Below, one piece after another: positions 1 through 23,892 of a stretch of DNA of 64,000 nucleotides (positions are counted from its first letter, which is position 1; each line of letters opens with the position of its first letter). A program made the translations under genes and the position numbers. Below the pieces are notes generated by a model, which ran no database searches, was not told the DNA's origin, and saw only the letters and a program-made list of their open reading frames with translations. Origin of the DNA: Paludisphaera borealis (GTDB lineage Bacteria > Planctomycetota > Planctomycetia > Isosphaerales > Isosphaeraceae); assembly GCF_001956985.1 (NCBI RefSeq), contig NZ_CP019082.1:992001-1056000 (forward strand). Reading direction: 5' to 3'.

Positions 1-3318
<3,318 letters not shown>

Positions 3319-4960: not shown

Positions 4961-5092
4961 TCGAGTTTTGTGTTTCGCGTTAGTCTTCACCTGATTTACG
5001 TCGACGCGGGACCGAGAGATCGCCGTGTGCTCTCCTCTCCTCGCTACCGTTATGAATTTCGTACGGCGGCAATAACCAAACAGGACATGGAA

Positions 5093-5458
5093 ATGAGCGA
5101 ATCCGAAACCCCGACGCCACAACAGCAGGTCACCAACGAGGTCGTCGTCGACGACACTGGCGCGCTGCCGTCGTACTCCAACTTCTGTCGCGTCACCGCG
5201 ACCCCCGAAGAAGTCATCCTCGACTTCGGCCTCAATCCCCAGCCGTTCGCCCAGGGGCGGCAGGACGTCAAGGCCAACCAGCGGATCGTCATGAACTTCT
5301 ACACGTCCAAGCGGCTGCTCACAGCCCTCGGCATGACTATCCAGCGCCACGAGGGGACCTTCGGCTCGATCGAGCTCGACGTCCGCCGCCGCGCCACCAA
5401 CCAGCCTCAGCAGGGTCAGACCGGCGGTCGCGTCGGTCCTCAGGGCGTGGTCGAGTGA
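5093..5458 (+). CDS. DUF3467 family protein
   Basis: A 121-residue protein resembling DUF3467, a small family of unknown function. The core runs from SYSNFCRVTATPEEVILDFGL to the MNFYTSKRLL segment. The tail is rich in Gln and Gly. I chose the ATG at 5093 because AGGA at 5082-5085 lies 7 bases upstream; the in-frame ATG at 5087 is too close to that site, and an open frame back to 4970 lacks a better signal. It sits 132 bases after waaA, possibly cotranscribed. Function is unknown. Confidence 0.8.
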   Translation: MSESETPTPQQQVTNEVVVDDTGALPSYSNFCRVTATPEEVILDFGLNPQPFAQGRQDVKANQRIVMNFYTSKRLLTALGMTIQRHEGTFGSIELDVRRRATNQPQQGQTGGRVGPQGVVE

Positions 5459-5739: not shown

Positions 5740-7188
5740 ATGCAAGCTTCAAAAACGCTGCGAGTTCGCCGCTGGCTGCCGTGCCTGTCCGACCCGACTG
5801 TTCTGGCGTTTCTGACCGCCGTCTCGCTCGTTCACTTCTGGCCCGCTCCCGTCGGCGCCGAGGAGCCGCCCGCCAAGACGAGTTACGACCAACTGGCCCC
5901 CGTCCTCCTCGGTCAGGAGACGTTCCAGGACCGGGTGGCGAAGGACAAGGCCGACAAGCCGGCGGTCGAGGCGCGCCAGAAGGCGCTTCTGGAGGAGCGC
6001 TACGAGCTCGGCTCGCGACCCGACGGCCAGGTCAAGATGACACGCGGCAAGCCGATCCAGGTCGGCCCGGCCGCGAAGCTCGTCGCGGGCACGACCTGGG
6101 AAAGCCTCGCCGCGACGGCCGCCGACGAGATCCGCGATAAGGGCCTGTTCCCCAAGGGCTTCCTGCCCCTGCCCCACCCCAAACACGAGGTCGGGGGCAT
6201 GGTCTTCCCGCAGATGGAGATCAAGCTGCTGCCTCGTCTGGAGCGGTTCGATATCGATTTCGACCTGCCCGAGCACTTCCTGCCCGAGTTCCCGCCGGCG
6301 ATCTTCCTGACCACCCGGCCCGACCTCGGCGACGTGTCTCAGGGCAAGGTGCTGACCGTCGACAACTTCCAGGAGATCTTCCAGGGCATCCTCAACGCCA
6401 AGGATCTTGAGGGGGTGCGGCTGCTGGTCACGCAGTTCCCCCAGCAGCAGTTCAACGCCACCCACGACCGCAAGACGGAACTGCCCCTTGGCATGCTGGG
6501 CGTGGCCTGCTTCGACTGCCACGTCAACGGCCATACCTCGGCGGCGACCCATCTGGTGGGCGACATCCGGCCGCAATCGCACCGCCGCCGCATAGAGACG
6601 CCGAGCCTTCGCGGGGTGAACGTCCAGCGGCTGTTCGGCTCGCAACGAGCCCTCAAGACCATCGAGGACTTCACCGAGTTCGAGCAGCGGGCGGCCTACT
6701 TCGACGGCGACCAGGTCTCGGCGGCGGCCAAGGGGATCAACCCGCTGGAACGCGGCAGCCAGGTCCACTTCATGTCCGAAGTCCAGGAGCTGCTCGACTT
6801 TCCGCCGGCCCCAGGGCTGGACGTTTTCGGCAAGCTCGACCCCAAGAAGTTCCCGGCCGACTCCCCGGAGATGAAGGGCCAGACCCTGTTCTTCGGCAAG
6901 GCCCAGTGCGCGGTCTGCCACCCGGCGCCGTACTATACCGACAACCTGATGCACGACCTGAAGGTCGATCGGTTCTACAAGACGCAGTCGATCAACGGCC
7001 TGGTCGCGACGAAGCAAGGGCCGATCAAGACGTTCCCCTTGCGGGGAATCAAGGAGTCGCCGCCGTACTTCCACGACGGCCGCCTGCTGACGCTCGAAGA
7101 CACGGTCGAGTTCTTCAACCTGGTTCTGGAGACCCAGCTCACTCCGGACGAAAAGCAGGCCCTCGTCGCGTTCATGCGGCAGCTCTAG
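5740..7188 (+). CDS. Exported di-haem cytochrome c peroxidase-like protein
   Basis: A 482-residue exported protein with two c-type haem sites, CFDCH (residues 257-261) and CAVCH (390-394). The spacing and the C-terminal FPLRGIKESPPYFHDGRLLTLEDTVEFFN segment are typical of the MauG/bacterial cytochrome c peroxidase superfamily. An N-terminal basic region plus hydrophobic stretch ending near VGAEEP looks like a Sec signal. The ATG at 5740 follows a G-rich ribosome site; a TTG at 5704 would add 12 residues. Substrate cannot be told. It appears to be a single-gene unit. Confidence 0.85.
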   Translation: MQASKTLRVRRWLPCLSDPTVLAFLTAVSLVHFWPAPVGAEEPPAKTSYDQLAPVLLGQETFQDRVAKDKADKPAVEARQKALLEERYELGSRPDGQVKMTRGKPIQVGPAAKLVAGTTWESLAATAADEIRDKGLFPKGFLPLPHPKHEVGGMVFPQMEIKLLPRLERFDIDFDLPEHFLPEFPPAIFLTTRPDLGDVSQGKVLTVDNFQEIFQGILNAKDLEGVRLLVTQFPQQQFNATHDRKTELPLGMLGVACFDCHVNGHTSAATHLVGDIRPQSHRRRIETPSLRGVNVQRLFGSQRALKTIEDFTEFEQRAAYFDGDQVSAAAKGINPLERGSQVHFMSEVQELLDFPPAPGLDVFGKLDPKKFPADSPEMKGQTLFFGKAQCAVCHPAPYYTDNLMHDLKVDRFYKTQSINGLVATKQGPIKTFPLRGIKESPPYFHDGRLLTLEDTVEFFNLVLETQLTPDEKQALVAFMRQL

Positions 7189-7567
7189 GTGGAAGCGAGC
7201 ACGGGGCTTATGTCGAATTTTCGGCGGCGGGCGATTCCTTCCTTTTGGGGCGGGGGTCGCTCGCCGTCGTCGCTTTCAGCTCTGCGGCGGTGGGGGTTGA
7301 GCCGTTCGGCCGTATTGCGGCGGCCGTCGTGCTCGTCCTGAAAGTGACGATTTTTCCGTCCGTCCGGCGGCTTTGTCTGATCGTCGGCGCGGCTGCCGGC
7401 CGATTCAGATGGTGAAAAGGGGTCCGCGTGTGCGGGTTATGCCCCGCACCGTGGCCTTGCCGGATGTTTCGACTCATCGTCAAGCGCCAGGTGCGCCGAT
7501 ACTAAGGATTGCCGGGCGTCTCGGCCTCGGTTCAGGACGGACGAGTCCAGCGTTAGGAGATAATGGA
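7189..7567. other. Intergenic region before the giant secreted protein
   Basis: A 379-base gap. An open frame extends upstream of the chosen start of the next gene, but it has no ribosome site or signal-like sequence. No clear promoter hexamers or hairpins seen. Confidence 0.4.
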
Positions 7568-10500
7568 ATGTCTCAGCCATCCCGACCGCGGGCCAACGGC
7601 CCAGCGCAGCGGCGTAAACGCGATCTCAGACCCGACATCATCATGCCGTTGGAGCAGCGCTGCCTGCTGGCTCCGGTCTTGCCGCTCTATCCGTTGCAGG
7701 CTGTGTTCACGGCCGCCACGACGCCGACCAACGGCGACTTGGGCACGGTCGTGGTGTCGAGCAACACCACGGCGACGACCCTGACCTCGGCGGCCCCGAT
7801 CACGTCGGTGTCGGAGACGACGCCGTTGACGTCGTTCGGCGGCGACAACGTCCGGATCAAGGCGGGGCCGGGCGGCGTATTCGGCAACGGCCTTTATGCC
7901 ATCTCTCGCGGCGCCGGATCCAACACGGGCGCGGTCAACCGGCCCGGCGTGATCTACCGGGTCGACCCGGCGACGGGGAAGGCGAGCGTCTTCTTCGACT
8001 TGAACACGGTCATGTCTCAGATCGACCCCAACGCCCTCAACACCGACGGCAAGAACGCCGCCGCGAACTCGCTGGGCGGTGCCACGGGGGGGGCGGTCGA
8101 TACGACCGGGTTCGCCAACTGGTACGACATCGCGTTCGACCCTGAAGGCTACATCGACGGCAAGCCTTCGATGCTGGTGAGCACGGTCGACCGTTCCGAC
8201 CCTTCGAAGAACGCCATCTACCGGATCGGCCCTGACGGCAGCTTCCTGGGCGCCTACGTCACCCTGACGGACGGCCAGGCCGCGACCAAGTTCAACATCA
8301 ATCCGACGGGCATGGTGGTTCCCGGTCCTGAGATGCAGCAGTTCCTTCGCGGCGTGATCGCCGGCAGCGGGATCAGCTCGACCGGCGGCACCATGGCCGC
8401 GTTGTTCTTCAACGCCAACCAGTACTCGCCGGGCCAGGTGATCTCGAACGGATCGAATTTGCCCAAGGGCGCGTCGGAAACCGGGTTGACCCTCGGGCCG
8501 ATCGTCGGCATCACCCAGGCGAACGTCGACTATACCTCGCCCCTCTATTCGGCGTTCACCGACTTCGGCACCCCGACCGGGGGCGGAATCCCGGCCAAGC
8601 CCGGCTTCAGCGGGGTGCAGGGGTCCAACGGCGGTCTGCTGATCGGCACCCAACTCACGTCGACGACGACCGGCGCGACCACCGCGACCATTGACCAGAC
8701 CGCGCTGGTCACCACCCCGTTCCGCCGCTTCGAGGACATCGCCTTCGACCAGTACGGCTACTTCTCGCAGTCGATGGGGCTCACCGCCTCGGCGACCGGG
8801 ACGGGGACGACGGGCGGATCGACGTCCGGCACTTCGCTCGTCACCGTGACGGGCCAGCCCACCTACGCCGGCAGCCTGTTCGTCAGCGACCTGGCTTCGG
8901 GCCTCTCGGTCAACGTCGTCTCCGTGGCGGAAGGCGACATCCCCGCGGGCGTCACCGTGCCGATCGCCGTCCAGGGGAGCGGCGTCCTCGGGATTCAGAA
9001 GCTGGATCCCAGCCTCCCCTACAACGCCACGACGAACCCGCTGGTTCCGATCGTCAGCAACGGCAACACCACAGGCGGCTCGAACGCCGCGGGCGGTCGC
9101 ATCGTGCGGATCACGCCCGAAGGCGTGATGACGGTCTTCGCCCAGGGCTTCAACACGTCCGCCGCGCAAGACTCGACCAGCTTCATGGATTCGAGCCTCT
9201 CCATCACCTTCTCGGCCGACGGCACGACGATGTACGCGTCGGACGGCGACGGCATCTGGCAGTTCAAGACGACCGCCAGCCTGGCCGGCTCGACCTCGGG
9301 CACGCTGATCGGACTGAACGACTTGCGGACCCTGGGCGTGCCGTATAACGGCCAGGGAAGCGCCGTGGCCGTCGTCGACACCGGCGTGGACGGGCTCTCG
9401 GCGCCGTTCCGCGGCAGGGTCTCGACCGGCAAGAACATCTACACCGGCGGCCCCGGGAACGCGGATCTTTCGTCGTTCACGAACTCCACCTCCGGCACGG
9501 GCGGCACGACTGGCGGCACGGGCGGCGGCACCACGGGCGGCACGGGCGGCACGACGAACGGCACGGGCAACGTGCTCGTCAACACGTTTGACGGCCACGG
9601 CACGCCGGTGGCTGGCGTCGTCGCCCAGTTCGTCCCCCAGGCCACCATCGAGCCGGTCGCGATCTTCTCGCCGTACTTCGGGTCGAGCACGCTGACCGTT
9701 GGCGGCGGCACCGGCGGCACGGGCGGCACCGGCGGCGGCACGACCGGGGGCACCGGCGGCGGCACGACCAGCGGCAACCTGTCGGCTTCGAGCAACGCCC
9801 TGACATCGACCAACGCCGTCTACAGCGGCATGGACTACGTCGCCAAGCACCCGTTCGTCAACGACCCGGTGCGGCCGGGCGTGGTCAATCGCGTGGTCGC
9901 TTCGGTCTTCGCCTTCGGGACGACGCAGACCTTCGCCACCGAGGCGCAGGCGTACAAAAACTATCCCCAGATCGTCATCGCTCTCAAGAACCAGTTGCAC
10001 AAGTACCGTAGACTGGGCATCGCCCCGATCGCGGCCGCCGGCCAGTTCGGCGCCCCGCTTGGAGCGAGCAGCGGCGGTTCCACGGGCGGCACCGGCGGCA
10101 CGGGCGGCGGCACGACCGGGGGCACCGGCGGCGGCACCACCGGCGGCACGACCGGCATAACCACCCAGTTCAATAACAGTGGAGCCAATCCGTCGATCGG
10201 CGACAACGACGGCATGTCGCTGCCGGCGGTCTTGAACGAAGCGATCTCGGTCACCGGGACGTATCCGTTCCCTTACTCCACCGACGCTTCGACCACTCCG
10301 AACAACCCGCCAATCGGTGCGATACCCAACCCGCTTGGTCCCGTCCTCATCTTCGGCAACGCGCTGACGATCGGCGGCACGGCCTCGAGCACGACCGGGA
10401 CCGGCAACGGAGGGGGCAGTGGCGGCGGCGGAGCCGGTGCCGGCGCGGGGGGAGGAGGGACCACTGGCTCGGCGACCAGCGCCAACGTCGCGCCCAACGT

Positions 10501-12316
10501 CCAGACCTTCGCCGCGTCCGACTTCAATATGTGGAACGACCGCATCCCCGGCGCCGTCAACCGCAGCATCACCACCGACTTCGCCGCGCCTGCAATCGAC
10601 GTGCCGACGTTCCGGCGTCGATTCTCCTCCCTCCAGGCGAATGGAACGACCACGACCACCGGCACCGGGACCAACATCAACGATCCGGCCAACCACTTGA
10701 CCTTCACCCAGGTCGGCACCTCGATGTCGTCCGCCATCGTGACCGGCGCCTACACCATGGTGTCGTCGGCGCTCAACTACTGGACCAATCTCAACAAGGC
10801 GAACGGAGTCACCTCCGACGCCTACCTCACGACGCCCGTCGGCGTCCGGAGCCTGAACTTCGGCCGTCGCGGCATCAAAGACCTGTCGGCGTACAACACG
10901 CCCGACGGGATCAACGGGATTCTCGCCTACACGGCGGTTCCCGCCTTCGACGTCAACGACGGCAACAGCGTCTCCACCCCGAATCTGGTCAGCTCCACCG
11001 ACAATCAGAACGGGTTCTCGGGGGGCGATTCGGCGCCGGCTTACGCTCGCGTCTCGATCGGCAACGCCATCGCCTCCATCGAAGGAACGATCGCGATCCG
11101 CTACTTGCTCGACCACAAGATCTTCCCGATCATGGACGAGAACAACGACGGCGTGATCTCGGCCCAGGAGGTTCAGGACTTCACCGACACCGCCGCCACC
11201 AAGGGCCTGGCGGAAGCCGGTGCCATGGCTCGCTTGCTGGGCGGCACGTCGACGACCTCGCTGCCCCAGGCCGGCATCAACAACCAGGTGTTCAATGAGA
11301 ACCCGGATCAGCCCGCGGCCCTGCAACGCCGGTTCAACTACTTCGACTTCGTCGCCAACGGCCAGCTCAAGGGGGGGATCAGCCTCGACAGCTTCCGGAT
11401 GCTCGCCAACACGCTCTTGCCCAAGCCTGACAGCTACAACATCATCGACCGCCAACGGGCGTCGGCCAACGGCTTCCTCGTCGACCCCACGGCTCAGCGG
11501 AACACCACGGCCCTTCAGCACAAACTGCCGTCGTTCGCCTGGGTGCCGAAGTCCGCGGTGGCGAAGTACCGCGGCGTCTCGCCCGCGAAGTTCAAGGTCA
11601 ACCGCAACGAGACCCCGGGCACTTACTTCCCGGTCTACACGCTGTTCGATTCCACTCAGGCCGCGCCCCAGCAGACTGGAGTGACGGTTACGAGGACGGT
11701 TCGGGTCAACGGCGAGACCATCTCGCTGGCCTCGGTCCGGCCGGTCGCGGCCCCGGCGGTTCAGACCGCCGCGCCGACGACCACGACCACCACCCCGCCG
11801 GCGACGACCACCACTCCGCCGGCGACGACGCCCGCCACGACCGGAACGACGACCCCGCCGGCGGCGACGCCCGCCGCGACCGGAACGACGACCCCGTCGG
11901 CGACGACGCCCGCCGCCGACACGACGGCGGGCACGACGACTTCGGACACCAGTCCCGTGGTCAGCGCTCTGTTGAACCTGGTCAACCAGTCTCAACAGCA
12001 GTCGGCGAAGACCGCGACGTCGCTCCCCGCAGCCACCCCGTCGGCGACGACCGATACGTCGACCACGACTACGACCCCGCCGGCGACGACCACGACCCCA
12101 CCGGCGCCAACCGAGCCGACCGCGACGCCCGCGGTCGCCACGGCCGCGACCACGACGGCGGACACCACGGCCAGCGACCTGGCCGCACAACAGCTAGCCG
12201 CCAGCCAGGCCCAGGCTCAGGCCCAGAAGCAGAAAGCCCTGGCGCTGGCCAATGCCAACAAGAATCAGGGCTTCTTCGACAAGCTCTGGAGCGACATCAA
12301 GAAGCCTTTCAGTTGA
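7568..12316 (+). CDS. Giant secreted subtilisin-like (S8) protein with planctomycete LExRxLLx signal
   Basis: A 1582-residue protein. The start at 7568 is set by AGGAG at 7555-7559, 8 bases upstream. Residues 28-35 (LEQRCLLA) match the planctomycete extracellular sorting motif (PF07595-like). The N-terminal third looks propeller-like (repeated IAFDPEGY and RIGPDG-type strands). A subtilase catalytic triad can be read: Asp604 in VAVVDTGVD, His677 in DGHGTPVAG and Ser1052 in GTSMSS. The catalytic segments are separated by Gly/Thr-rich tracts. A canonical EF-hand loop (DENNDGVISAQE) begins at residue 1190. The C-terminal part is Thr/Pro-rich. Likely a calcium-binding exported or cell-surface protease; activity is inferred from motifs only. 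Confidence 0.85.
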   Translation: MSQPSRPRANGPAQRRKRDLRPDIIMPLEQRCLLAPVLPLYPLQAVFTAATTPTNGDLGTVVVSSNTTATTLTSAAPITSVSETTPLTSFGGDNVRIKAGPGGVFGNGLYAISRGAGSNTGAVNRPGVIYRVDPATGKASVFFDLNTVMSQIDPNALNTDGKNAAANSLGGATGGAVDTTGFANWYDIAFDPEGYIDGKPSMLVSTVDRSDPSKNAIYRIGPDGSFLGAYVTLTDGQAATKFNINPTGMVVPGPEMQQFLRGVIAGSGISSTGGTMAALFFNANQYSPGQVISNGSNLPKGASETGLTLGPIVGITQANVDYTSPLYSAFTDFGTPTGGGIPAKPGFSGVQGSNGGLLIGTQLTSTTTGATTATIDQTALVTTPFRRFEDIAFDQYGYFSQSMGLTASATGTGTTGGSTSGTSLVTVTGQPTYAGSLFVSDLASGLSVNVVSVAEGDIPAGVTVPIAVQGSGVLGIQKLDPSLPYNATTNPLVPIVSNGNTTGGSNAAGGRIVRITPEGVMTVFAQGFNTSAAQDSTSFMDSSLSITFSADGTTMYASDGDGIWQFKTTASLAGSTSGTLIGLNDLRTLGVPYNGQGSAVAVVDTGVDGLSAPFRGRVSTGKNIYTGGPGNADLSSFTNSTSGTGGTTGGTGGGTTGGTGGTTNGTGNVLVNTFDGHGTPVAGVVAQFVPQATIEPVAIFSPYFGSSTLTVGGGTGGTGGTGGGTTGGTGGGTTSGNLSASSNALTSTNAVYSGMDYVAKHPFVNDPVRPGVVNRVVASVFAFGTTQTFATEAQAYKNYPQIVIALKNQLHKYRRLGIAPIAAAGQFGAPLGASSGGSTGGTGGTGGGTTGGTGGGTTGGTTGITTQFNNSGANPSIGDNDGMSLPAVLNEAISVTGTYPFPYSTDASTTPNNPPIGAIPNPLGPVLIFGNALTIGGTASSTTGTGNGGGSGGGGAGAGAGGGGTTGSATSANVAPNVQTFAASDFNMWNDRIPGAVNRSITTDFAAPAIDVPTFRRRFSSLQANGTTTTTGTGTNINDPANHLTFTQVGTSMSSAIVTGAYTMVSSALNYWTNLNKANGVTSDAYLTTPVGVRSLNFGRRGIKDLSAYNTPDGINGILAYTAVPAFDVNDGNSVSTPNLVSSTDNQNGFSGGDSAPAYARVSIGNAIASIEGTIAIRYLLDHKIFPIMDENNDGVISAQEVQDFTDTAATKGLAEAGAMARLLGGTSTTSLPQAGINNQVFNENPDQPAALQRRFNYFDFVANGQLKGGISLDSFRMLANTLLPKPDSYNIIDRQRASANGFLVDPTAQRNTTALQHKLPSFAWVPKSAVAKYRGVSPAKFKVNRNETPGTYFPVYTLFDSTQAAPQQTGVTVTRTVRVNGETISLASVRPVAAPAVQTAAPTTTTTTPPATTTTPPATTPATTGTTTPPAATPAATGTTTPSATTPAADTTAGTTTSDTSPVVSALLNLVNQSQQQSAKTATSLPAATPSATTDTSTTTTTPPATTTTPPAPTEPTATPAVATAATTTADTTASDLAAQQLAASQAQAQAQKQKALALANANKNQGFFDKLWSDIKKPFS
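9494..9569 (+). repeat. Gly/Thr-coding low-complexity tract 1
   Basis: Imperfect GGC/ACG-type repeats encode a GGTGG-like linker between the subtilase Asp604 and His677 segments. Confidence 0.9.
9701..9775 (+). repeat. Gly/Thr-coding low-complexity tract 2
   Basis: A second GGTGG-like tract, shortly after the His677 segment. It shares long runs with tracts 1 and 3, so it could recombine. Confidence 0.9.
10071..10156 (+). repeat. Gly/Thr-coding low-complexity tract 3
   Basis: The third and longest GGTGG-like tract, between the His and Ser segments. A fourth, more purely glycine tract is at about 10399-10460. Confidence 0.9.
11758..12175 (+). repeat. Thr/Pro/Ala-rich C-terminal repeats
   Basis: Degenerate repeats of the type TTTPPATT and TPAATGTTTP encode a mucin-like C-terminal stalk interrupted by a short helical-looking segment (about 11950-12010). 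Confidence 0.8.
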
Positions 12317-13063: not shown

Positions 13064-15241
13064 TTAGATGTTGAAGTGGAACGTCTTGGTGATGAGCCGC
13101 CAGAGCCACCAGCCGAAGGTGTGGGTGCCGCCGTCGATCTTGGCGAACCCGCGCTGGCCGGGATGGAACAGCAGGTTGGGATTCTCGATGGGGATGATGA
13201 CCTCGTAGACGGCGGTTTGCGGCTTCACCTGGCCGGTTTTGGGGTCGGGCTTGGCGGCGATCTCGCCGCCGGCGGAGTTCGCAAGCTCGGGAGGGATCTC
13301 GTCGCGGTTCCGCTTGGCGATCTCGGTGACCTTGCTGACGAGGGTGGTCTCGGAGCGGCCGTGGATTTTGACCCAGGTTTTGTTATCGGGCTTGATCAGG
13401 TCGATGTCCGACTGGTCGATGATCAATCGGGCTTCGAGATGATGGGGGTCGGCGAGCTGGCAGAACGGTTTACCGGTCTTCAGCCACTGGCCGAGCGTTT
13501 CGCGGTGGGGGACGCCGATGAGCTGACCGTCGCGGCTGGCGGTCAGGGTGAGCTTGCCGAGTTGATCGTTGATCCTGGTCATGGACGGCTCAAGTTGTTC
13601 GGCCATCACCTCGTGCTGCTTCGCCTGCGCCCGGGTCGCGGCGCTCTGGTTGTACCAGAGGGCCTTGAACCAGTAGGTGTCGTGTTCGGCCTGGCGCTGG
13701 ACGCGCTCCTTCTGCTTCTCAAGGTTGACGAGCTGGGCCAAGACGGCGCCTTTTTTGACCCACTGGCCGTCAAGGACTTTGAGGTCGACGAGCTGGCCTT
13801 CGACTTCGGCGTAGACCTCGACGGGGTTGGCCGGCGACAGCACCAGGGTGCCCTGGATTCGCAGCGGGGTGGGGATCAGCAAGATCCCGGCCACGACGGC
13901 TACGAACGCCGCGGCGAAAGCGGCCGCACGAGCTTTCTTCACTTTGCGCATCCTCCCGGGCGTGCGAACGAACTTACCGATCTGGTAAATGGGCATGGCC
14001 AACAGCGGGATCAATGATCCGAGCGCCAGCATATAACTAAGCGATTGCAGCTTGTACGGCTTCAGCACCTGCGACAAGAAGAAGATGATGCTGAAGGTGA
14101 CCACCCAGCGGTACAGGTAGCTGGCGATCGCGTACGACACGAACAGCGTCCGCCGGGAGCGCGGCAGGTAGCTCTGGACGGGGACTTCCAGGCCGAGCAC
14201 CTTCTCCTGGATCAGGTAGGTGAAGAACTGGGTGCTCTTGATCCGCAGGTTGGGGATTTCCAGGTAGTCGGCCGTCACGTAGTAGCCGTCGTACCGCAGC
14301 AGCGGGTTGGCGTTGAACAAGACGGTGTTGACCGAGCAGATGAACATCGTGGCCATCGCCAGGCTGTTGAACAGCCCTTGCTCGGTGTTGAACCAGACGA
14401 AGGTGGCGATGCTGGCCAGGAAGAGTTCGACGTAGATGCCTGCGGCCGAGATCCAGATCCGGTGCCACTTGTTGGGCAGGAGCCAACTGTCGGTCACGTC
14501 ACAGTAGAGGGCCGGGGTGAGGACGAGGAAGAGCATCCCCATCTCGTGGACCTCGCCGCCGAAGTGCTTGGCGGTGAGCCCGTGGCCGAACTCGTGGATG
14601 ATCTTGATGATCGCCAGGCTGATCCAGAACGTGAAGATCGTCCACCAGTTGAAGAAGCTCTGGAACTCGGGGAGCTTCGAGTAGAAGTGGCTCCACTGGC
14701 TGACGACCAGGATGATCGCGGCGAGCATCATGCTTGTGCTGAAGGCCACGAAGGTGCGGGTGAACAGCCAGCGGAAATACGGATACATCCAGGTCAGGAG
14801 CCGCTCGGGGTCGATGACCGGGATCTTGATGAACAGGATGTTCGCCAGGAAGCCCCAGACCTTCCGCCACCGGTTCTTGCGGCGGCGGCGGATCAGGGCG
14901 ACGGCCTGCTCGGGACTGTCGATGATGACGACGCCCGCCTCGTGGAGCTGGGCCACGAACCGAACGAGGTCCTCGATCGAGATCGTCTGGGGCCGGTATT
15001 TGCGCTCGAAGGCCCGCTTGACGTCCTGCAGGTTCTTCTCGCCGTCGAACTGCTGGAGCAGGAAGTACTCCTCGATCTTGAATCGGAAGTACTTGAGGGC
15101 CAGCGGGTCCTTGATGACGTAGTGGGTCATCCCCTCGTAGAACTGGGGTTGGACCACCAGGTCGGGCCGGAGCTTGACCTTGAGGTGCTCGGCGGCCTGC
15201 CCGTAGGGAGTCGCTGGGGCTGTTGTGGGAGCTGCGCTCAT
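13064..15241 (-). CDS. PqqD-like / M50 site-2 peptidase / HlyD fusion membrane protein
   Basis: A 725-residue polytopic protein. Residues about 10-105 look PqqD-like (a fold that binds precursor peptides in RiPP pathways; inferred). A peptidase M50 core follows with HEFGH (His216, Glu217, His220) and a NPLLRYDGYY motif whose Asp318 is the probable third zinc ligand. Several membrane segments flank it. From about residue 450 there is an HlyD-type adaptor region (VYAEVEGQLVDLKVLDGQWVKKG) with a coiled-coil hairpin. It is the last gene of a three-gene unit with two more HlyD-type proteins, 85 bases after the second. Likely handles peptides at the inner membrane; substrate unknown. Confidence 0.85.
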   Translation of the reverse strand: MSAAPTTAPATPYGQAAEHLKVKLRPDLVVQPQFYEGMTHYVIKDPLALKYFRFKIEEYFLLQQFDGEKNLQDVKRAFERKYRPQTISIEDLVRFVAQLHEAGVVIIDSPEQAVALIRRRRKNRWRKVWGFLANILFIKIPVIDPERLLTWMYPYFRWLFTRTFVAFSTSMMLAAIILVVSQWSHFYSKLPEFQSFFNWWTIFTFWISLAIIKIIHEFGHGLTAKHFGGEVHEMGMLFLVLTPALYCDVTDSWLLPNKWHRIWISAAGIYVELFLASIATFVWFNTEQGLFNSLAMATMFICSVNTVLFNANPLLRYDGYYVTADYLEIPNLRIKSTQFFTYLIQEKVLGLEVPVQSYLPRSRRTLFVSYAIASYLYRWVVTFSIIFFLSQVLKPYKLQSLSYMLALGSLIPLLAMPIYQIGKFVRTPGRMRKVKKARAAAFAAAFVAVVAGILLIPTPLRIQGTLVLSPANPVEVYAEVEGQLVDLKVLDGQWVKKGAVLAQLVNLEKQKERVQRQAEHDTYWFKALWYNQSAATRAQAKQHEVMAEQLEPSMTRINDQLGKLTLTASRDGQLIGVPHRETLGQWLKTGKPFCQLADPHHLEARLIIDQSDIDLIKPDNKTWVKIHGRSETTLVSKVTEIAKRNRDEIPPELANSAGGEIAAKPDPKTGQVKPQTAVYEVIIPIENPNLLFHPGQRGFAKIDGGTHTFGWWLWRLITKTFHFNI

Positions 15242-15326
15242 CGATCGGCGATCCTCGGTGGGCCGTGCGAGGGACGACTCGTCACAGGGTCAGGGATGAA
15301 TCGGAAACGGCCGTCTCCGCCCACGT

Positions 15327-16274
15327 TCAGCGGGCGGTCGGCTGGGGGGTTCGCGAGGCGACGTCGTCGGTCAGAAAAATCGTCGCGGCCACCTTGAAGC
15401 CCGGCCGCAGCTCGAAGTTCGGGTTGTCGAACTCGGCTCGGATGAGGACGGCGGTCTCGCCGACCGGCTGGATCTCGGGGTTCACGAACGAGATCTTGCC
15501 GCGGAACTTCATGCGTTCGATCGGCTGATCGCCGCGGGTGCCGACGAGCCGGGGCTGGATCTCGACGATCTGGCCCTCCTTGACGCGCAGCGCGTACTCG
15601 AGCGGAACGTGGAATTCGGCCCAGAGTCGCGCCAGGTTGCCGATCTCGACGACGGCCTCGTTGGCCCGCACACTCTCGCCGGGGTGCTTCATCCGCTTGA
15701 TGACGATGCCGTTGAACGGCGCCACGATCGTATGCTCCTTGAGCATCTGCTTGGCGAGGTTGAGCTCGGCCTTGTTGATCGCGACCTGCTCCTTCGCCTC
15801 GTTGATCTGGGCCACGGCGACCTTGAGTTCGCCCTCGGCCTTGGCGACGTCTTCCTGCGACACCATGCCCGGCTTGCGCTCGTTGAGCCGCTTGTTGCGA
15901 GCGACGACGGTGAGGGCGACCTCCCAGGCGGCTTGCCCCTTCTCGATCGCGGCGGTGTTGCTGGCCATCAGGGCGTTCTTGGCGACGGTCAGCTCGGCGA
16001 CCTCTTTGTGGAGATAACCGATCGGCTGGTCCTTGATCGCCGGGTCGCCTTCCCGCAACTCCATTTTCTCGATGACGCCTTCGCGGAGGGCGGCGACTTC
16101 CGACTTCTCGATCCAGTCGAGCCTGCCGAGCTGGTCGGCCGACTCGAGGACGAGGGTGGCGGTCGCGCCCCGGGGAGCGGGGTCCTGGCCCGCGCCGTTC
16201 TGCCCGAAGGCGGCTACGGACAGAGTCGCGAGCATTCCCACGGCCACGGTCCCGGCGGTTTTCAGGGCGGTCAT
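15327..16274 (-). CDS. HlyD/RND-type periplasmic adaptor protein
   Basis: A 315-residue adaptor. The start at 16274 follows GGAGG and gives a clean signal peptide (MTALKTAGTVAVGMLATLSVAAFG). A longer frame to 16430 would overlap the upstream gene and lacks a signal. Lipoyl-like half-motifs flank an alpha-helical coiled coil (about residues 80-170), followed by APFNGIVIKRMKHPGESVRANEAV and a beta-barrel domain. Such proteins link inner-membrane exporters to outer-membrane channels. No RND pump or ABC ATPase is adjacent; its partners are the two HlyD-containing neighbours. Confidence 0.85.
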   Translation of the reverse strand: MTALKTAGTVAVGMLATLSVAAFGQNGAGQDPAPRGATATLVLESADQLGRLDWIEKSEVAALREGVIEKMELREGDPAIKDQPIGYLHKEVAELTVAKNALMASNTAAIEKGQAAWEVALTVVARNKRLNERKPGMVSQEDVAKAEGELKVAVAQINEAKEQVAINKAELNLAKQMLKEHTIVAPFNGIVIKRMKHPGESVRANEAVVEIGNLARLWAEFHVPLEYALRVKEGQIVEIQPRLVGTRGDQPIERMKFRGKISFVNPEIQPVGETAVLIRAEFDNPNFELRPGFKVAATIFLTDDVASRTPQPTAR

Positions 16275-16387
16275 GATCGAACGAGCCTCCACGCGTTGAT
16301 AGTCGGAAAACGTATTTGAAGGAGTTTCAGGCCGCGGCTGCCTTCGGACCCGCCGCGCGGCGGGGCCGCAGGCGAGGCGATCGATGA

Positions 16388-18466
16388 TCAATGCAGGAAC
16401 GGCCAGCGGAAGAGGACCGACTCGTGCCACACCTGGACGACCTTGCGGAACAACACGTAGGCCAGTCGGGCGTCGCCGCAGTCGATCCGGGCGCGGGTCT
16501 CGGCGCCCGCCCGGAATTCGTGGTTCCGCTTGAGGTACTCGTTGCGAACGGCGTCGCTGAATCCCACGGTCACCTTCACCGTGTGCCGCTGCTCGTTGCT
16601 GTCGGGCTTGGTCTCGGCCTTGGCCGCGATCCGCCGCACGAAGCCCTGGTAGCGGTGCTCGGGCTCGGTCATGACCACGAAGTAGGCCGACAGGGTCGAT
16701 CCGGCGGGCGCCGATTCGAGCTTGCTCTGGGCCGCGAGGACCGGTCCCATGTCGTCGTCGGGAACGTCGACCTCAAGCACCCACTCGCCTTCGGTCGAGG
16801 CGATCTGGAGCAGCTCGGTCCCGATGTCGACGGGACGGCCCATCAGGTTCTCTTTCGCCTTCCACGTGGTGATGACGCCGTCGTGCGGGGCGCGGATCGA
16901 CATCGACTCGATCTGCTCCTGGACGATCTCGATCTGCTCGCGAGAGCTCTTGGCCGTGATCTGGGCCTCCGAGAGCTGCGCCTGGAGCTGGTAGACGTTC
17001 TCGCGATCGTTCTGCGTGGTGCTCGACCGCTGCTCCTGGCGTTGGAGGATGACGGTCTGGTTGCTGGCCTTGTTGTATTCGGCGGTCAGCTTGTTGAGTT
17101 CCTTCTGCAGCTCGCGGCTGTCGAGGCGGGCGATCACGTCCCCCTTCTTGACGACTGAGCCGTGATCGACGGGCACCTCGACGACGATGCCGGGGATCGG
17201 CGCGTAGACGCTTTGCCGCTGTTCCGGCATGAGCGAGCCGCGGCCTTCGATCCGCAGGTTCCAGGGGACGAAGGTCAAGGCGCCGATGAGGGAGACGATG
17301 AGCAGCAGGACCGCGACGATCTTGGCCAGCGTCCGGCCCCGCAACAGCCGCCACGGCGAGCCCATCGCCTTGAGCAGTGGCCGGAGGAAGATCCGGTGAT
17401 GCTCCTGCGCGTTCCAGAGCGCGGTCGAGGCGTGCCGCGACACGACCTCGGTCCGGGCGTGCATGTCGGTGGGGGCGATCTCGTCGCCGATCTGCTCCGC
17501 CACGAGGCAGCCGTACGCCACCTTCTCTTTGTGTTCGGCGCCCTCCTCCTTTTCAGGCTTGTGGAGGATCGCGATCGCCACGGCCTTCGAGCCCGACTCG
17601 TCGACGTACAGCTCGAGAGCGTCGCGGATGTCGGGGGCGAAGCCGTCGGTGTTGCCCGTGTAAACGAGGTCTTCGCCCGACCGGATCACGGCCTTGCAAA
17701 GCTTCGTCAGCTCGCGGACCTGGTTGGACCGCTGTTCGACGACCTCCTGGCCGCTGATCGCCTCGACGAGCGTCCGGCCGGACAGCTTCATCGCCACGCT
17801 CAGGCGGTCGCAGCCCACCAGCCGCTTGCCGTCGTTGACGATCGCGTAAGCCGTCTCCTTGAGGTCCAGCGATGCGTGGATTTGGTGGGTGAAGCCCTCA
17901 AGCTGGTTCCACAGCCGTTGCTGCGAGACCATCTGCCGCATCTGCCGGTTCTTGAGGTAGTTCGAGGCCAGGTCGCACAGGTCGGCCACGAACCGCAGCG
18001 TGCTCTTCTGCTGGGCCGCCCGACGATTGGGGTCCATCAGAATTTCGAGCAGACCGACGACCTGCTTGTCGACGACCAGGGGGGCCAGGATGATCGCCAG
18101 GTGGGTGGGGTTGTACGCCTGCGGCACCCCTTCGATCACCGCGCCGGGAGGGACGATCTGGGGCTGCGTCGCCTGAACCATGCAGCCGAGCAGAGCGTCG
18201 TGCGGGGGCGTCTTGACGCGCCCGTCCATGAGCCCGGTCTGGGCGAAGTCGAGCTGGTACTGGAGTCGCAGGCCGCCCCGGCCGTCGAGCAGCCAGAACG
18301 CGCCTCCGGTCGCGGCCGTCGCGGCCACGGCCCGGTTTAGAAACTCGCCGTAGAACTCACCGGGCTGGACGTCCGATTCCGCCAGGTCGGCAATCTCGGC
18401 CACCAGCTTGCGGATCTGGGTTTTCGTCTGTTCGAGCAGACCAGCATCGATGGTTTCTTCCGTCAT
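16388..18466 (-). CDS. Tandem-GAF membrane protein with HlyD adaptor domain
   Basis: A 692-residue protein. The first 370 residues look like two GAF domains in tandem (about 40-170 and 195-365), placing a sensory module in the cytosol. One transmembrane helix follows (about 380-400, IVAVLLLIVSLIGALTF). The rest is an HlyD-type adaptor: VYAPIPGIVVEVPVDHGSVVKKGDVI, a coiled coil (about 455-520), and IRAPHDGVITTW. It is the first gene of the three-gene unit. The architecture suggests that a small ligand or signal in the cytosol controls the adaptor across the membrane; this is inference. No strong ribosome site is visible. Confidence 0.85.
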   Translation of the reverse strand: MTEETIDAGLLEQTKTQIRKLVAEIADLAESDVQPGEFYGEFLNRAVAATAATGGAFWLLDGRGGLRLQYQLDFAQTGLMDGRVKTPPHDALLGCMVQATQPQIVPPGAVIEGVPQAYNPTHLAIILAPLVVDKQVVGLLEILMDPNRRAAQQKSTLRFVADLCDLASNYLKNRQMRQMVSQQRLWNQLEGFTHQIHASLDLKETAYAIVNDGKRLVGCDRLSVAMKLSGRTLVEAISGQEVVEQRSNQVRELTKLCKAVIRSGEDLVYTGNTDGFAPDIRDALELYVDESGSKAVAIAILHKPEKEEGAEHKEKVAYGCLVAEQIGDEIAPTDMHARTEVVSRHASTALWNAQEHHRIFLRPLLKAMGSPWRLLRGRTLAKIVAVLLLIVSLIGALTFVPWNLRIEGRGSLMPEQRQSVYAPIPGIVVEVPVDHGSVVKKGDVIARLDSRELQKELNKLTAEYNKASNQTVILQRQEQRSSTTQNDRENVYQLQAQLSEAQITAKSSREQIEIVQEQIESMSIRAPHDGVITTWKAKENLMGRPVDIGTELLQIASTEGEWVLEVDVPDDDMGPVLAAQSKLESAPAGSTLSAYFVVMTEPEHRYQGFVRRIAAKAETKPDSNEQRHTVKVTVGFSDAVRNEYLKRNHEFRAGAETRARIDCGDARLAYVLFRKVVQVWHESVLFRWPFLH

Positions 18467-20909: not shown

Positions 20910-22084
20910 GCCGCCGGGTCCTGGTGACGGGCGCTACCGGCTTGCTGGGGAGCCACCTCGTCGAGCGGCTTGGCGCGCGCGGTGATCACGTGCTCGCTCT
21001 GGCGCGACAGTCGAGCGCCACCGGTTTTCTCGACGAGCGCGGCGTCGAGGTGGTGCGCGGCGATCTGACCGACCCGTCCGCCTGCGATCGGGCGCTCGAC
21101 GGGATCAACGTCGTGTACCACTGCGCGGCGAAGGTCGGCGACTGGGGGAGTTGGTGCGAGTTTCAGGTCGGCTGCATCGACGCGACCCGGACGCTCGCCG
21201 AGGCGGCTGTTCGCGCGCGAGTCGACCGGTTCGTCCACGTCAGCTCGACGAGCGCCTACGGCCACCCGAGCGACCGCGCGGAGCCCATCGCCGAGACCCA
21301 CCCGCTGGGCGACAACATCTGGGTCCTCGACTATTACACGAGGAGCAAGGTCGATTGCGAGCGGCTGCTCTGGGGACTCGCCGAGACCGGCGGCCTGCCG
21401 CTGACCGTGATCCGTCCGAGCTGGATCTTCGGCGAGCGCGATCGCACGACGATGCCCCGGTTGATCCAGGAGTTTCGCTGGAACCGGGTGTCGATCGTCG
21501 GCAAGGGGGACAACCCGCTGAGCGCCGTGTATGCGGGGGTCGTCGCCGATGCGGCGATCCTGGCGGCCGACGATCCGGGGTCGGTCGGCGAGGCGTACAA
21601 CGTCACGAGCCAAGCGGCGATCACCCAACGCCAGTTTCTCGACATGCTGGCCGACGCCCTGGACGTCCCTCGGGTGACCTGGCGATATCCGTTCTTGTAC
21701 GCTTTCTACGGTGGATTCGCGCTCGAGCTTCGCGAACGCCTGCGGCGGAGCAAGAAGCCCCCGCAGGTGACGCGATACGGGGCGTGGCTCTTGGGCCGCC
21801 GGCTCAGCTACAGCACCGAAAAGGCCCGGAACAAGCTGGGATGGACGCCGGCGCTCTCGTACGAAGAGAGCATCGAGCGGACGGTGCAATGGTTTCTGGC
21901 TGACCAGGATGCCCGCATTCCGAAGCGTCGGACGCCGCCGGTCGTCGCGGTCCGGCGCGCCCTGGGCTTGCTCAGAACGGAACCGGAGGCGGCGCCGCGT
22001 TCGCGGGAGCCGGCTTTTGACCGGCCGGCGGCTGAGTCGGCGCGGGTGCCGCGGCGGCCGGAGTCGGGACGGGGGTCGCGATGA
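20906..22084 (+). CDS. Extended SDR: NAD(P)-dependent epimerase/dehydratase
   Basis: A 392-residue Rossmann protein. The nucleotide-binding motif GATGLLG starts at residue 9, which forces the TTG start at 20906. The catalytic Ser (HVSSTSAYG) and YTRSK motif follow the extended SDR pattern. The family includes sugar-nucleotide epimerases and 3-beta-hydroxysteroid-type dehydrogenases; the substrate is not evident. It overlaps the preceding small gene by 4 bases. The Arg/Pro-rich C-terminal tail overlaps the end of the convergent SUMF1-domain gene by 113 bases. Confidence 0.85.
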   Translation: MSRRVLVTGATGLLGSHLVERLGARGDHVLALARQSSATGFLDERGVEVVRGDLTDPSACDRALDGINVVYHCAAKVGDWGSWCEFQVGCIDATRTLAEAAVRARVDRFVHVSSTSAYGHPSDRAEPIAETHPLGDNIWVLDYYTRSKVDCERLLWGLAETGGLPLTVIRPSWIFGERDRTTMPRLIQEFRWNRVSIVGKGDNPLSAVYAGVVADAAILAADDPGSVGEAYNVTSQAAITQRQFLDMLADALDVPRVTWRYPFLYAFYGGFALELRERLRRSKKPPQVTRYGAWLLGRRLSYSTEKARNKLGWTPALSYEESIERTVQWFLADQDARIPKRRTPPVVAVRRALGLLRTEPEAAPRSREPAFDRPAAESARVPRRPESGRGSR

Positions 22085-23690
22085 CGGCCGGTCTTTCGAC
22101 CTGAAGGGCGCACCGAAAGCCGACGTAGGTCAGCCGCTTCTCGGCCGCCATCGGTTCGCGAGCCGCGCCGGCGCCGGTCTTTCCTCCCTTGACGACCAGG
22201 TCGGATTTCCCCGAGCGAGGCTGCGCACCGGTCGGGTCGCTGACGACCTGCGAGGCGATCGACCGGTAATAGCCGGGGTCGAAGGAGTCGGACGTCCACT
22301 CAAGGACGTTCCCCGCCATGTCGAAGACGCCATAGGGCGACTTGTCTTCCGGAAACGACTTGACCGGGTCGATTCGACGGGCGGTGCGGGGGCGAGCGTA
22401 CTTGGCGGGCTCGTCGCCCCAGGGATACGTCCGGCCGTCGATCGACCGGGCCGCCAGTTCCCACTGCGCCTCGGTCGGCAGGCGTTTGCCGGCCCATTCC
22501 GCGTAGGCCTGCGCGTCGCCAGCGTTGACCATGACCATGGGCAAGGCCTCGGTCGAAGGCTTGCCGGTCTCATCGACGGTCGGCCAGTTCCCGGGGGGCC
22601 GTCCACGAAACCGCGTCTCGGAGAGGAAGAGGCGGAACTGGCGGACCGTCACCTCGTGCTGATCGATGTAATAGCCGGATAGGTTGACCTTGTGCTCGGG
22701 GCTGGCGAAACCCGCATCGCGGTCGTCGCCCATCGTGAAAACGCCGCCGGGGACGAACACCATCGGAGCGCCGTCGCGGTCGCCGACGATCAGCAGCGGC
22801 CATCCGGACGGGTCCATCCCCGCCTCGGTCTTGGCGGTGAAGCCGGGAGGCAACTTGCGGTCGGCGCTGACGGGCGTCGCCGTCGCGTTCGCTGAAACCT
22901 GCGAGGGAGTCAGCTCGGCAGGGTTGGCCGGTAAGACGAGCGTGGCGTTGCCCTTCGCCTCGACGCCGGGCGCTCGGGCCACGACCACGGTCGGCGGGGC
23001 GGTCGGCTCGGCGTCGGGAACGGCTGGGGCGTCGGCCTTCACGGTGGGACGATCGAGGAACAGCGGCAGATTCTGCGCCGGTCGCTTGAGGGCCTCGCGG
23101 GCGTCGCCGGCCGTCTTGGTGTTTTTGTACGCCTTGACCAGCTTCTCAAGGAGCGCGACGGCCTCGTCGGACCGGCCGATCTTGGCGAACTCGCGCGCCC
23201 GGACGAACATGGCGCGCGCCTCGACATCGAGGTCGGGCTTGGCGGGCTCGACGGGGCCCTGGGCCATGGCGTCTTCGTCGGTCGGGCCGCCGTCTGGGAA
23301 CGGGTTCTTGGGGAACATCTGGTAGCCCACGTAGCACGCCAGGCCGACGATTCCGGCGATCAGTCCGCCGGTGAGCATCCGCGCCCGCTGGCGGGCTTCG
23401 TAGGTGTCGAAAGCGGGCGTCTCCTCCATGAGCGCTTTCTTTTCGCCCGGCTCGTCGCCGCCCGCGCCCGCCTTGGAACTCTTCCCCGCGTCGGCCGGCT
23501 TGCCCACGTTCCGCTTCCTGCCGGGACTCGCGGCAGGCTCGTCCTCGGGCTCGGCCTTCCACATCCGGGGCAAGGGCTGCCCCGGCGCGCGGGTCGGCTG
23601 CGCTTTCGGCGTCGGGGGCTGATCGGTCTCGGACTCGTCCGATTCCGGATTGTCGGCCAGATCGTATTCGTCCGGTGCGTCACCGTTCAT
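21972..23690 (-). CDS. Membrane-anchored SUMF1/FGE-like domain protein
   Basis: A 572-residue protein. A disordered charged N-terminus (1-100) precedes one membrane helix (about 105-126), a short TPR-like segment and, in the C-terminal half, a formylglycine-generating-enzyme-like (SUMF1) domain: FVPGGVFTMGDD, YYIDQHEVTVRQFRLFL, AYAEWAGKRLPTEAQWE, AARSIDGRTYPWGDEP, GVFDMAGNVLEWTSD, VGFRCAL. The catalytic Cys pair of true FGE is absent. It therefore more likely acts as a binding or other SUMF1-type domain than in sulfatase activation. The ATG at 23690 is preferred over an upstream TTG. The Pro/Ala-rich tail overlaps the convergent SDR gene. Confidence 0.85.
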   Translation of the reverse strand: MNGDAPDEYDLADNPESDESETDQPPTPKAQPTRAPGQPLPRMWKAEPEDEPAASPGRKRNVGKPADAGKSSKAGAGGDEPGEKKALMEETPAFDTYEARQRARMLTGGLIAGIVGLACYVGYQMFPKNPFPDGGPTDEDAMAQGPVEPAKPDLDVEARAMFVRAREFAKIGRSDEAVALLEKLVKAYKNTKTAGDAREALKRPAQNLPLFLDRPTVKADAPAVPDAEPTAPPTVVVARAPGVEAKGNATLVLPANPAELTPSQVSANATATPVSADRKLPPGFTAKTEAGMDPSGWPLLIVGDRDGAPMVFVPGGVFTMGDDRDAGFASPEHKVNLSGYYIDQHEVTVRQFRLFLSETRFRGRPPGNWPTVDETGKPSTEALPMVMVNAGDAQAYAEWAGKRLPTEAQWELAARSIDGRTYPWGDEPAKYARPRTARRIDPVKSFPEDKSPYGVFDMAGNVLEWTSDSFDPGYYRSIASQVVSDPTGAQPRSGKSDLVVKGGKTGAGAAREPMAAEKRLTYVGFRCALQVERPAVIATPVPTPAAAAPAPTQPPAGQKPAPANAAPPPVPF

Positions 23691-23892
23691 GACCGGGATT
23701 CCCAAGTGATCGGCTCGGGCTGGAAGAATCGCTTGATATTCCTAGCCTAACGCCTCGCGGAGCCGCCGCACAGTCCCGACCACGGTTCGCCGATTTCCTT
23801 CGTAGTGCGACGCCGAAGGGTATCGAGCGGGGCCTTGGAAATGCGACCGGCGACGGTGCGGCGGCTCGTGGCTAGGGCTCACAAACCACTGC

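Follow-up and report, generated by a model that had tools for sequence, protein, structure and literature searches.

A three-gene RRE-protease-adaptor module of Paludisphaera borealis as the probable core of an exporter for giant LExR-signal proteins

We analysed a 64,000-nucleotide stretch of the planctomycete Paludisphaera borealis (contig NZ_CP019082.1, positions 992,001 to 1,056,000; hereafter the window), which belongs to a genome of 7.65 Mb that is 99.93% complete, and followed up three consecutive minus-strand genes, P0001, P0002 and P0003, whose products all contain HlyD adaptor domains. These genes probably form the inner-membrane and periplasmic core of a trans-envelope exporter for large surface proteins that carry a basic N-terminal signal with an LExRxLL core (LEPR-XLL; Planc_extracel). 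The proposal draws on proteobacterial operons in which the module adjoins a giant gene starting with this motif, and on the co-occurrence of motif and module across Planctomycetota. If it is correct, two orphans, a motif known since 2004 and a gene module known since 2015, would explain each other, and giant proteins would be exported in a novel manner, by a SecA-type motor combined with HlyD/TolC parts and with an RRE, a domain from peptide natural-product biology that we propose as the signal receptor.

The gene set itself is already known. Kamneva, Poudel and Ward (2015; PMC4452313) described secondary SecA_DEAD proteins in conserved loci with M50-HlyD, HlyD and GAF-HlyD families, sometimes joined by an OEP/TolC protein; they remarked on the absence of an ATP-binding cassette (ABC) transporter, proposed SecA as the ATPase and the M50 protein as completing the pore, and reported that the wing-scaffold domains of planctomycete SecA proteins are rearranged. 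The module of the window belongs to that set, because all three families are present and the genome encodes a second SecA_DEAD protein. Where that article discusses the module, its wider role is termed completely unknown and neither a cargo nor an RRE domain is assigned. In contrast to the published set, the SecA-like gene here lies 1.25 Mb from the module, and we add a cargo link, the RRE fold and a DUF3467 companion; for these, and for the two operon subtypes described below, we found no match in the open-access literature searched. The signal has a literature of its own: PMC8567305 quotes the consensus RRLxxExLExRxLLA from Studholme 2004 as a presumed export signal and reports that, of the 10 longest Tuwongella immobilis proteins, 8 carry the motif, and its passages on the motif assign no machinery to it.

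Giant genes beside the module and their shared signal

In Proteobacteria the module genes form compact operons adjoining a giant gene, and these fall into two subtypes. Subtype A runs from the giant gene through DUF3467, one or more adaptors and the RRE/M50/HlyD gene to a SecA-like gene, with an extra adaptor and TolC in some members (Methylosinus, Thalassospira without a local SecA-like gene, Pseudosulfitobacter, Pontibrevibacter and Mesorhizobium); the Thalassospira operon, on a single strand, reads LEPR-XLL giant, DUF3467, HlyD, M50/HlyD, HlyD, TolC. Subtype B runs giant gene, TolC, adaptor, adaptor, RRE/M50/HlyD, without a local SecA-like or DUF3467 gene (an E. coli plasmid, Niveispirillum, Kosakonia, Burkholderia anthina and Azospirillum TSA2s). 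Same-strand operons that include the giant gene were seen across Alpha-, Beta- and Gammaproteobacteria. All five operon SecA-like genes scanned, among them those of Methylosinus, Pseudosulfitobacter, Pontibrevibacter and Mesorhizobium, match SecA_DEAD by Pfam. Existing annotations call such genes prepilin peptidase, translocase, DEAD/DEAH helicase or hypothetical; four of them (L158:22177-24093, L167:16094-18079, L160:22099-24081 and L201:37491-39452), of which one is annotated as a prepilin peptidase, one as a translocase and two as DEAD/DEAH helicases, all gave the Pfam SecA_DEAD match.

The giant neighbours were read in 16 loci picked for holding the protease gene (H1, H3, H5, H9, H10, H12, H15, H16, H18, H19, H20, H21, H25, H51, H58 and H60), from the best 60 of 77 records. 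The neighbour's start was unreadable in four loci (A. ramasamyi, Rhodobacteraceae M382, Pseudohalocynthiibacter and Rhizobium johnstonii), and 11 of the 12 readable neighbours carry the motif 15 to 53 residues past a start, in the forms LEPRVLL, FEPRVLL, IEPRILL, MEPRVLL, LEPRFMF, LESRQLF, LEPRMLF, LEPRVVY, LEPRMMF (two) and LEPRLLY. These are forms of the LEPR-XLL motif, after which RefSeq has named two of the giants. LEPRLLY is also the form of a giant of 3,750 residues encoded near the protease gene on the megaplasmid of Cupriavidus metallidurans CH34. The motif of A. thermophilum sits on a short separate open reading frame (ORF) preceding two more pieces, and that of Azospirillum TSA2s, LEPRFMF, near the beginning of an open frame that precedes the annotated gene; the annotation of this giant (L178:884; NZ_CP039644.1, about 281.9-283.2 kb) places its start up to 448 codons too far downstream. 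Enterobacterial plasmids carry a subtype B operon with an Ig-like giant (L168 and L172; E. coli plasmid NZ_CP081687.1). Within E. coli the protease gene and the giant's start, counted separately, each occur in 24 of 5,426 genomes.

A reverse search began from the motif alone, with five probes of 26-28 residues around it run against 72,556 plasmid records, 77 of which hold the protease. Beyond the probes and their near-copies, matches were found in Pontibrevibacter, Thalassospira, Pseudosulfitobacter, Mesorhizobium, Indioceanicola and Caballeronia, and all six records hold the protease, that of Caballeronia being found in a further protease search. Pontibrevibacter, Thalassospira and Pseudosulfitobacter were known by then from the module side; Mesorhizobium, examined for its motif alone, has the predicted operon with the SecA-like gene included; Indioceanicola has a 4,530-codon frame with LEPRVMF; and in Caballeronia a frame of 381 codons carries LEQRILF and overlaps the beginning of another of 3,175 codons. 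Planococcus (E 4) and Embleya (E 9) also matched, and are not among the best 60 of 77 and 60 of 74 protease records. The probes further returned 27 near-identical enterobacterial copies, and a near-identical protease is present in 27 of these 28 records, the probe counted.

Co-occurrence was assessed in a draw of 197 genomes across the phylum, 44 of which have the module, a count that leaves out matches under about 125 bits (adaptor only or fragment) and so dropped G109 and G139 from an initial 46. The LEPR-8K profile NF012209 exceeds its cut-off in 22 of the 197 genomes, and 20 of these have the module, compared with 24 of the 175 others (Fisher 2.6e-13). At the level of families (77 in number, a total taken from the highest family label seen) the proportions are 13/14 and 11/63 (p 1.6e-7), and this is the fairer value, Fisher values ignoring shared ancestry. 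Both exceptions were judged spurious, because in G153 an Arg/Ala-rich frame runs for more than 220 codons before the hit, and in G124 the hit falls in an 88-codon frame. The module is also present in 27 of the 28 genomes classified as having a second SecA-like copy (27 of 29 with G014). The classification was manual and used frame length together with position among the matches listed, so that there are at least 28 such genomes, and G014 was omitted as ambiguous (two matches, an 831-codon frame, no module). Of 38 genomes carrying DUF3467, 28 have the module.

The signal is also enriched in large ORFs neighbouring P0001 homologues in 121 planctomycete loci. Once module genes and ORFs running off the locus had been removed, the motif was present in 12 of 50 ORFs of at least 900 amino acids, where shuffling gives an expectation of 0.5, in 2 of 113 ORFs of 600-899 amino acids (1.3 expected) and in 9 of 882 shorter ones (11.2 expected). 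This enrichment shows a signal, not linkage, because these genomes commonly encode large LExR proteins and the context of L154, one of the 12, suggests a false hit. Physical linkage within planctomycetes is modest: motif hits no more than 15 kb from a protease gene were seen over cut-off in three genomes (G083, G144 and G160) and below it in G032. Thirty N-termini aligned on LExR, found with a pattern in which positions 0, 1 and 3 are fixed and the choice at 5 and 6 is limited, have further conserved positions, namely Leu at -5 (16/30), Glu at -2 (17/30), Asp, Ser, Ala or Thr at +7 (29/30) and Ala or Gly at +8 (24/30), and Arg is frequent ahead of the motif. The N-termini beside the module agree with the RRLxxExLExRxLLA consensus of the planctomycete cell-surface motif (PF07595; LEPR-8K, NF012209). 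Beyond the published motif, we link it to the RRE-M50-HlyD module and extend it to proteobacterial giants, including LESRQLF and LEPRMMF forms.

Make-up of the module and its likely cargo in the window

The module features of the window are:

13064..15241, minus strand: P0001, 725 amino acids, a fusion of an RRE (PqqD-like) domain, an M50 site-2 protease and a HlyD/MacA-like adaptor (Pfam, family alignment, AlphaFold with VIA-align)
14915..15184, minus strand: RRE domain of P0001, residues 20-109 (VIA-align to 5v1v; PF05402 in homologues; PDB PqqD 3g2b)
14258..14662, minus strand: M50 core of P0001, residues 194-328, HEFGH and Asp318 (PF02163; RseP 7w6y, Z 10.3)
13091..13939, minus strand: periplasmic adaptor part of P0001, residues 435-717 (PF13437; MacA-type adaptors, Z 16.5-17.0)
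15327..16274, minus strand: P0002, adaptor of the membrane fusion protein (MFP) family, resistance-nodulation-division (RND) type, 315 amino acids, signal-peptide-like start (TIGR01730 103.5 bits, cut-off 94.9)
16388..18466, minus strand: P0003, 692 amino acids, GAF (36-173), GAF (201-349), membrane helix (by eye) and HlyD (417-634) (Pfam)

Much of this agrees with an earlier sequence-only reading of the window, which had described HlyD domains in all three proteins, two GAF domains in one of them, and a PqqD-like domain joined to an intact M50 zinc site in another. HlyD_3 exceeds the Pfam cut-off of 22.2 in each protein (42.9, 41.8 and 50.8 bits), and both GAF domains were found in P0003. The ORF of P0002 is open to 16430, and its signal-peptide-like start makes 16274 the most likely start, where a further analysis puts it as well. 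P0002 passes TIGR01730, yet no RND pump is present among the window neighbours scanned; the nine window proteins scanned with Pfam and curated profiles include neither an ABC nor an RND pump, as that reading had also stated, and the SecA-like ATPase explains the absence of an adjacent pump in part. The three-gene arrangement is not due to chance, because all 13 genomes of the class in the draw, that of P. borealis counted, have a P0001 homologue, and the full-length protein was found in 44 of the 197 phylum genomes by profile search; the P0001 of Singulisphaera sp. GP187 is 75% identical to that of the window.

The protease of P0001 is intact. Its Peptidase_M50 match reaches 35.2 bits (cut-off 27.2, Pfam), and His216, Glu217, His220 and Asp318 are invariant in 35 of 35 aligned homologues and again in 16 of 16 sequences of a second alignment with 15 proteobacterial relatives, so that alignments and predicted structure together give it the HExxH motif, distal Asp and membrane-embedded core of the M50 family. 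The PqqD-like domain gave no Pfam match in P0001 itself; PF05402 was found in 20 of 35 family members at E<=0.1 (best 1.6e-6), and a profile of the N-terminal region matched PqqD (3g2b, E 0.0035) and lasso-peptide RREs in the PDB, the matches together spanning E 0.0035 to 0.06. In the AlphaFold model (mean predicted local distance difference test score, pLDDT, 88.4) residues 20-109 align by VIA-align to the leader-bound lasso-peptide RRE TbiB1 (5v1v; Z 11.4, root mean square deviation 2.6, 86 aligned, target 88), residues 194-328 to RseP (7w6y), and residues 435-714 to the MacAB-TolC adaptor chain 9qgy_G (Z 17.0) and to MacA 3fpp (Z 16.5). The best 50 Foldseek matches listed are all adaptors, and the RRE and RseP matches come from VIA-align as a second structural comparison. 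On this evidence the N-terminal domain has the PqqD-like winged-helix fold of an RRE, so that one refuting case named by the sequence-only reading, a mismatch to that fold, did not arise; leader binding by the domain is a prediction.

Neighbourhoods in Planctomycetota repeat the same families. A contig search for P0001 homologues gave a best 80 loci, planctomycete except one labelled only 'bacterium', and a set of 41 loci (the window and 40 fetched planctomycete regions, genes under 60 amino acids not called) was examined for recurring neighbours, which are an adaptor (32 loci), GAF-HlyD (32), SecA-like (14, the canonical SecA of the window counted), TolC/OEP (10, Pfam run on one) and DUF3467 (8). 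Across 121 P0001 loci we counted 91 P0003-like, 71 P0002-like, 34 DUF3467 and 23 SecA-like neighbours (window canonical SecA again counted), all of them lower bounds since the counts rest on single-query BLAST. An ABC exporter was rejected as a regular partner: an ABC-ATPase-like ORF is present in 5 of 121 loci, one of them directly behind P0001, and the other refuting case that the sequence-only reading had named, homologues always found with an ordinary ABC exporter, did not arise either. For L160 and L161 the annotation assigns the ABC genes to uptake clusters. The divergent porin that the same reading had offered as the exit was also rejected, its homologue being found in 1 of 121 loci, namely the window itself. 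Of the 16 proteobacterial loci read with their annotation, 10 include a TolC gene, and TolC genes occur in relatives' operons; in P. borealis TolC is not beside the module, and 31 OEP matches lie elsewhere in the genome.

The secondary SecA of this genome is encoded in a separate locus. The second PF07517 match lies at C1:2253296-2254459 in a 704-codon frame (called protein 649 amino acids, C1:2253212-2255161), and its wing-scaffold loss is judged by length alone. The window also encodes the canonical SecA of 1,208 amino acids at 16-3318, which begins upstream of the window (L077:11692-15318).

A candidate cargo and companion lie near the module:

7568..12316, plus strand: P0005, subtilase-like, about 1,582 amino acids, a basic leader followed by LEQRCLLA, convergent with the module (AGGAG at 7557, ATG at 7568)
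7649..7669, plus strand: LEQRCLL core of the proposed export signal (regular expression)
5087..5458, plus strand: DUF3467 protein, companion of module and cargo (PF11950 71 bits, cut-off 25)

Module, DUF3467 and P0005 thus fall within 14 kb, with the SecA-like motor and TolC candidates elsewhere. The N-terminus of P0005, MSQPSRPRANGPAQRRKRDLRPDIIMPLEQRCLLAPVLP, has a basic stretch and then the motif, as in cargo elsewhere, and P0005 is a likely cargo of the module. Its motif is supported by the regular expression and by a homologue in L082 (40% identity) with RRKTRSVYLEATQLEDRKLPAP (LEDRKLPAP), near the Tuwongella motif form, which directly adjoins a DUF3467 gene; a partial homologue in L078 (63% identical) adjoins the module. 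Another P. borealis protein passes NF012209 (C1:3680808, 17.8 bits, cut-off 17). The DTG, GHGT and GTSMS stretches of P0005, which we take to be subtilase-like, are interrupted by Gly/Thr repeats, and the protein has no Pfam match.

Proposed export route and its alternatives

From the domain make-up, the invariant active site, the genomic linkage and the co-occurrence of module and signal, all observed directly, we infer every step of the following route. The simplest reading of P0001 unites receptor, leader protease and duct in a single protein, because an RRE fold is fused to a protease and an adaptor and is encoded with giants that share one N-terminal signal. Export of LExR proteins by the module is, to us, highly likely. 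The RRE of P0001, on the cytosolic side, would bind the LExR leader, a step towards which we lean; the SecA-like ATPase, encoded elsewhere in this genome, would push the unfolded chain, and a SecA-like motor is rather likely to drive export; the M50 site of P0001 might clip the leader at the membrane, on which our judgement is evenly balanced; and the adaptors of P0001, P0002 and P0003 would hand the chain on to a channel of the TolC type. Through its two GAF domains P0003 may gate or report on export upon binding a cytosolic ligand, a tentative suggestion. DUF3467 would serve as companion or chaperone, the chaperone role being doubtful and a likeness to SecB a guess (its fold model is poor, with pLDDT 66.6 from 8 sequences, and comparison of its sequence with the PDB gave no relative). 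We narrowly favour the broader proposition that this is a distinct, unnumbered diderm secretion system in which an RRE-protease-adaptor reads LExR, a SecA-like motor replaces the ABC transporter, and adaptors and TolC export proteins whose length can exceed 12,000 residues; it would be the missing exporter of the planctomycete surface proteome, shared with Proteobacteria on plasmids and chromids.

Among known systems we file the module as type I-like export. Type I secretion (HlyB-HlyD-TolC) likewise sets adaptors and TolC around an inner-membrane component and handles giant unfolded cargo, and its signal is C-terminal; the module, in contrast, has no regular ABC transporter, a SecA-like ATPase in one subtype, an N-terminal signal and an RRE-protease fusion. 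SecA2 and the accessory Sec systems of Gram-positive bacteria also devote a second SecA to special large surface proteins, whereas the module belongs to Gram-negative envelopes and works with adaptors, TolC and an RRE protease.

Several observations weigh against the proposed exporter. In Magnetospirillum pMSR-1 the operon stands beside a 492-amino-acid gene without the motif, and NZ_CP026404.1 has the enterobacterial giant start without a near-identical protease. In Tautonia sociabilis a true ABC exporter (ABC_membrane and ABC_tran; L090:12883-15093) lies directly behind the P0001 homologue, the sole clear case in 121 loci. Planctomycete motif hits are mostly far from the module, and 24 of 44 module genomes have no motif profile over cut-off, so either the profile is weak or other cargos exist; PF07595 is itself weak, with four genomes over cut-off, three of them with the module (p 0.036). 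G147, a metagenome-assembled genome listed at 6% contamination, encodes a real motif protein (LEDRRLL at residue 33) on a contig of 6 kb, and the module was not detected in this genome. In the window, the P0005 motif is flagged neither by NF012209 (own-genome E<=1) nor by PF07595 (E<=0.1). Subtype B loci lack a local SecA-like gene, and no second SecA-like copy was classified in 17 of 44 planctomycete module genomes, so the motor step is not general as stated; where a secondary SecA was not identified, another motor, perhaps the housekeeping SecA, or an overlooked copy may serve.

A system resembling those of ribosomally synthesised and post-translationally modified peptides, in which the RRE and M50 site mature a short precursor that the adaptors export, would suit the best curated match of P0001, the daptide leader protease MpaP (NF041824), which aligns over its RRE region and protease (residues 42-411), the next match, YydH/LiaK, and the resemblance of its RRE fold to lasso-peptide RREs. 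Yet NF041824 scores 177.2 bits against an equivalog cut-off of 300 and YydH/LiaK 48.2 against 225, and P0001 differs from both in being fused to a HlyD adaptor with no short precursor seen. The only small family among neighbours found in at least 4 of the 41 loci, in which genes under 60 amino acids were not called, is DUF3467, and when the 23 intergenic ORFs of 20-90 amino acids between 10.5 and 21 kb of the window were compared with five close relatives, a single one (20986-21108) gave matches below E 0.01; its position is opposite the neighbouring dehydrogenase gene. A short-peptide precursor was rejected on these grounds, and with the conserved operon neighbour being a giant gene we consider such a system very improbable. 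The sequence-only reading had envisaged a recognised peptide passing through the adaptors, with short peptide genes to be sought at conserved neighbours: recognition of a leader and passage of its bearer carry over into our proposal, and the short cargo gives way to a giant with LExRxLL.

It is also quite improbable that motif and module share a lifestyle only, LExR proteins leaving by Sec or another route and the module acting as a separate stress-signalling or efflux device with an RseP-like protease and adaptors. The mostly non-adjacent motif hits of planctomycetes, the inflation of co-occurrence tests by shared ancestry and the resemblance of P0002 to RND efflux adaptors would accord with this, but the same-strand giant operons in three proteobacterial classes, the motif-only reverse search and the failure of any pump subunit to recur with the module argue for a direct connection. 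Alternatively, P0001 could be mainly a scaffold or pore of the exporter whose protease cuts a regulator, not the cargo. Site-2 proteases usually cut membrane-spanning substrates and the LExR leader is short and basic, which speaks for that role, as does the pore-completing function proposed for the M50 protein in PMC4452313; the catalytic residues, however, are invariant in both alignments, and the RRE is fused to a protease whose nearest curated family, by its name, cleaves leaders, and we regard a protease idle towards cargo as unlikely.

Other genes of the window and its relatives

Rfam and tRNA scans of the window gave no matches. A second DUF3467 gene with a double DUF3467 stretch in one 215-318-codon frame occurs in G022, G045, G064, G081, G097, G127, G142, G166, G177 and G181, and is possibly a duplicated companion. 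Between the DUF3467 gene and P0005 of the window lies a gene for a MauG-like di-heme protein (5740-7188; 38.8 bits, cut-off 443.85). The protein at 21972-23705 is formylglycine-generating-enzyme-like, with GldK of type IX secretion as its best match (75.9 bits, cut-off 350).

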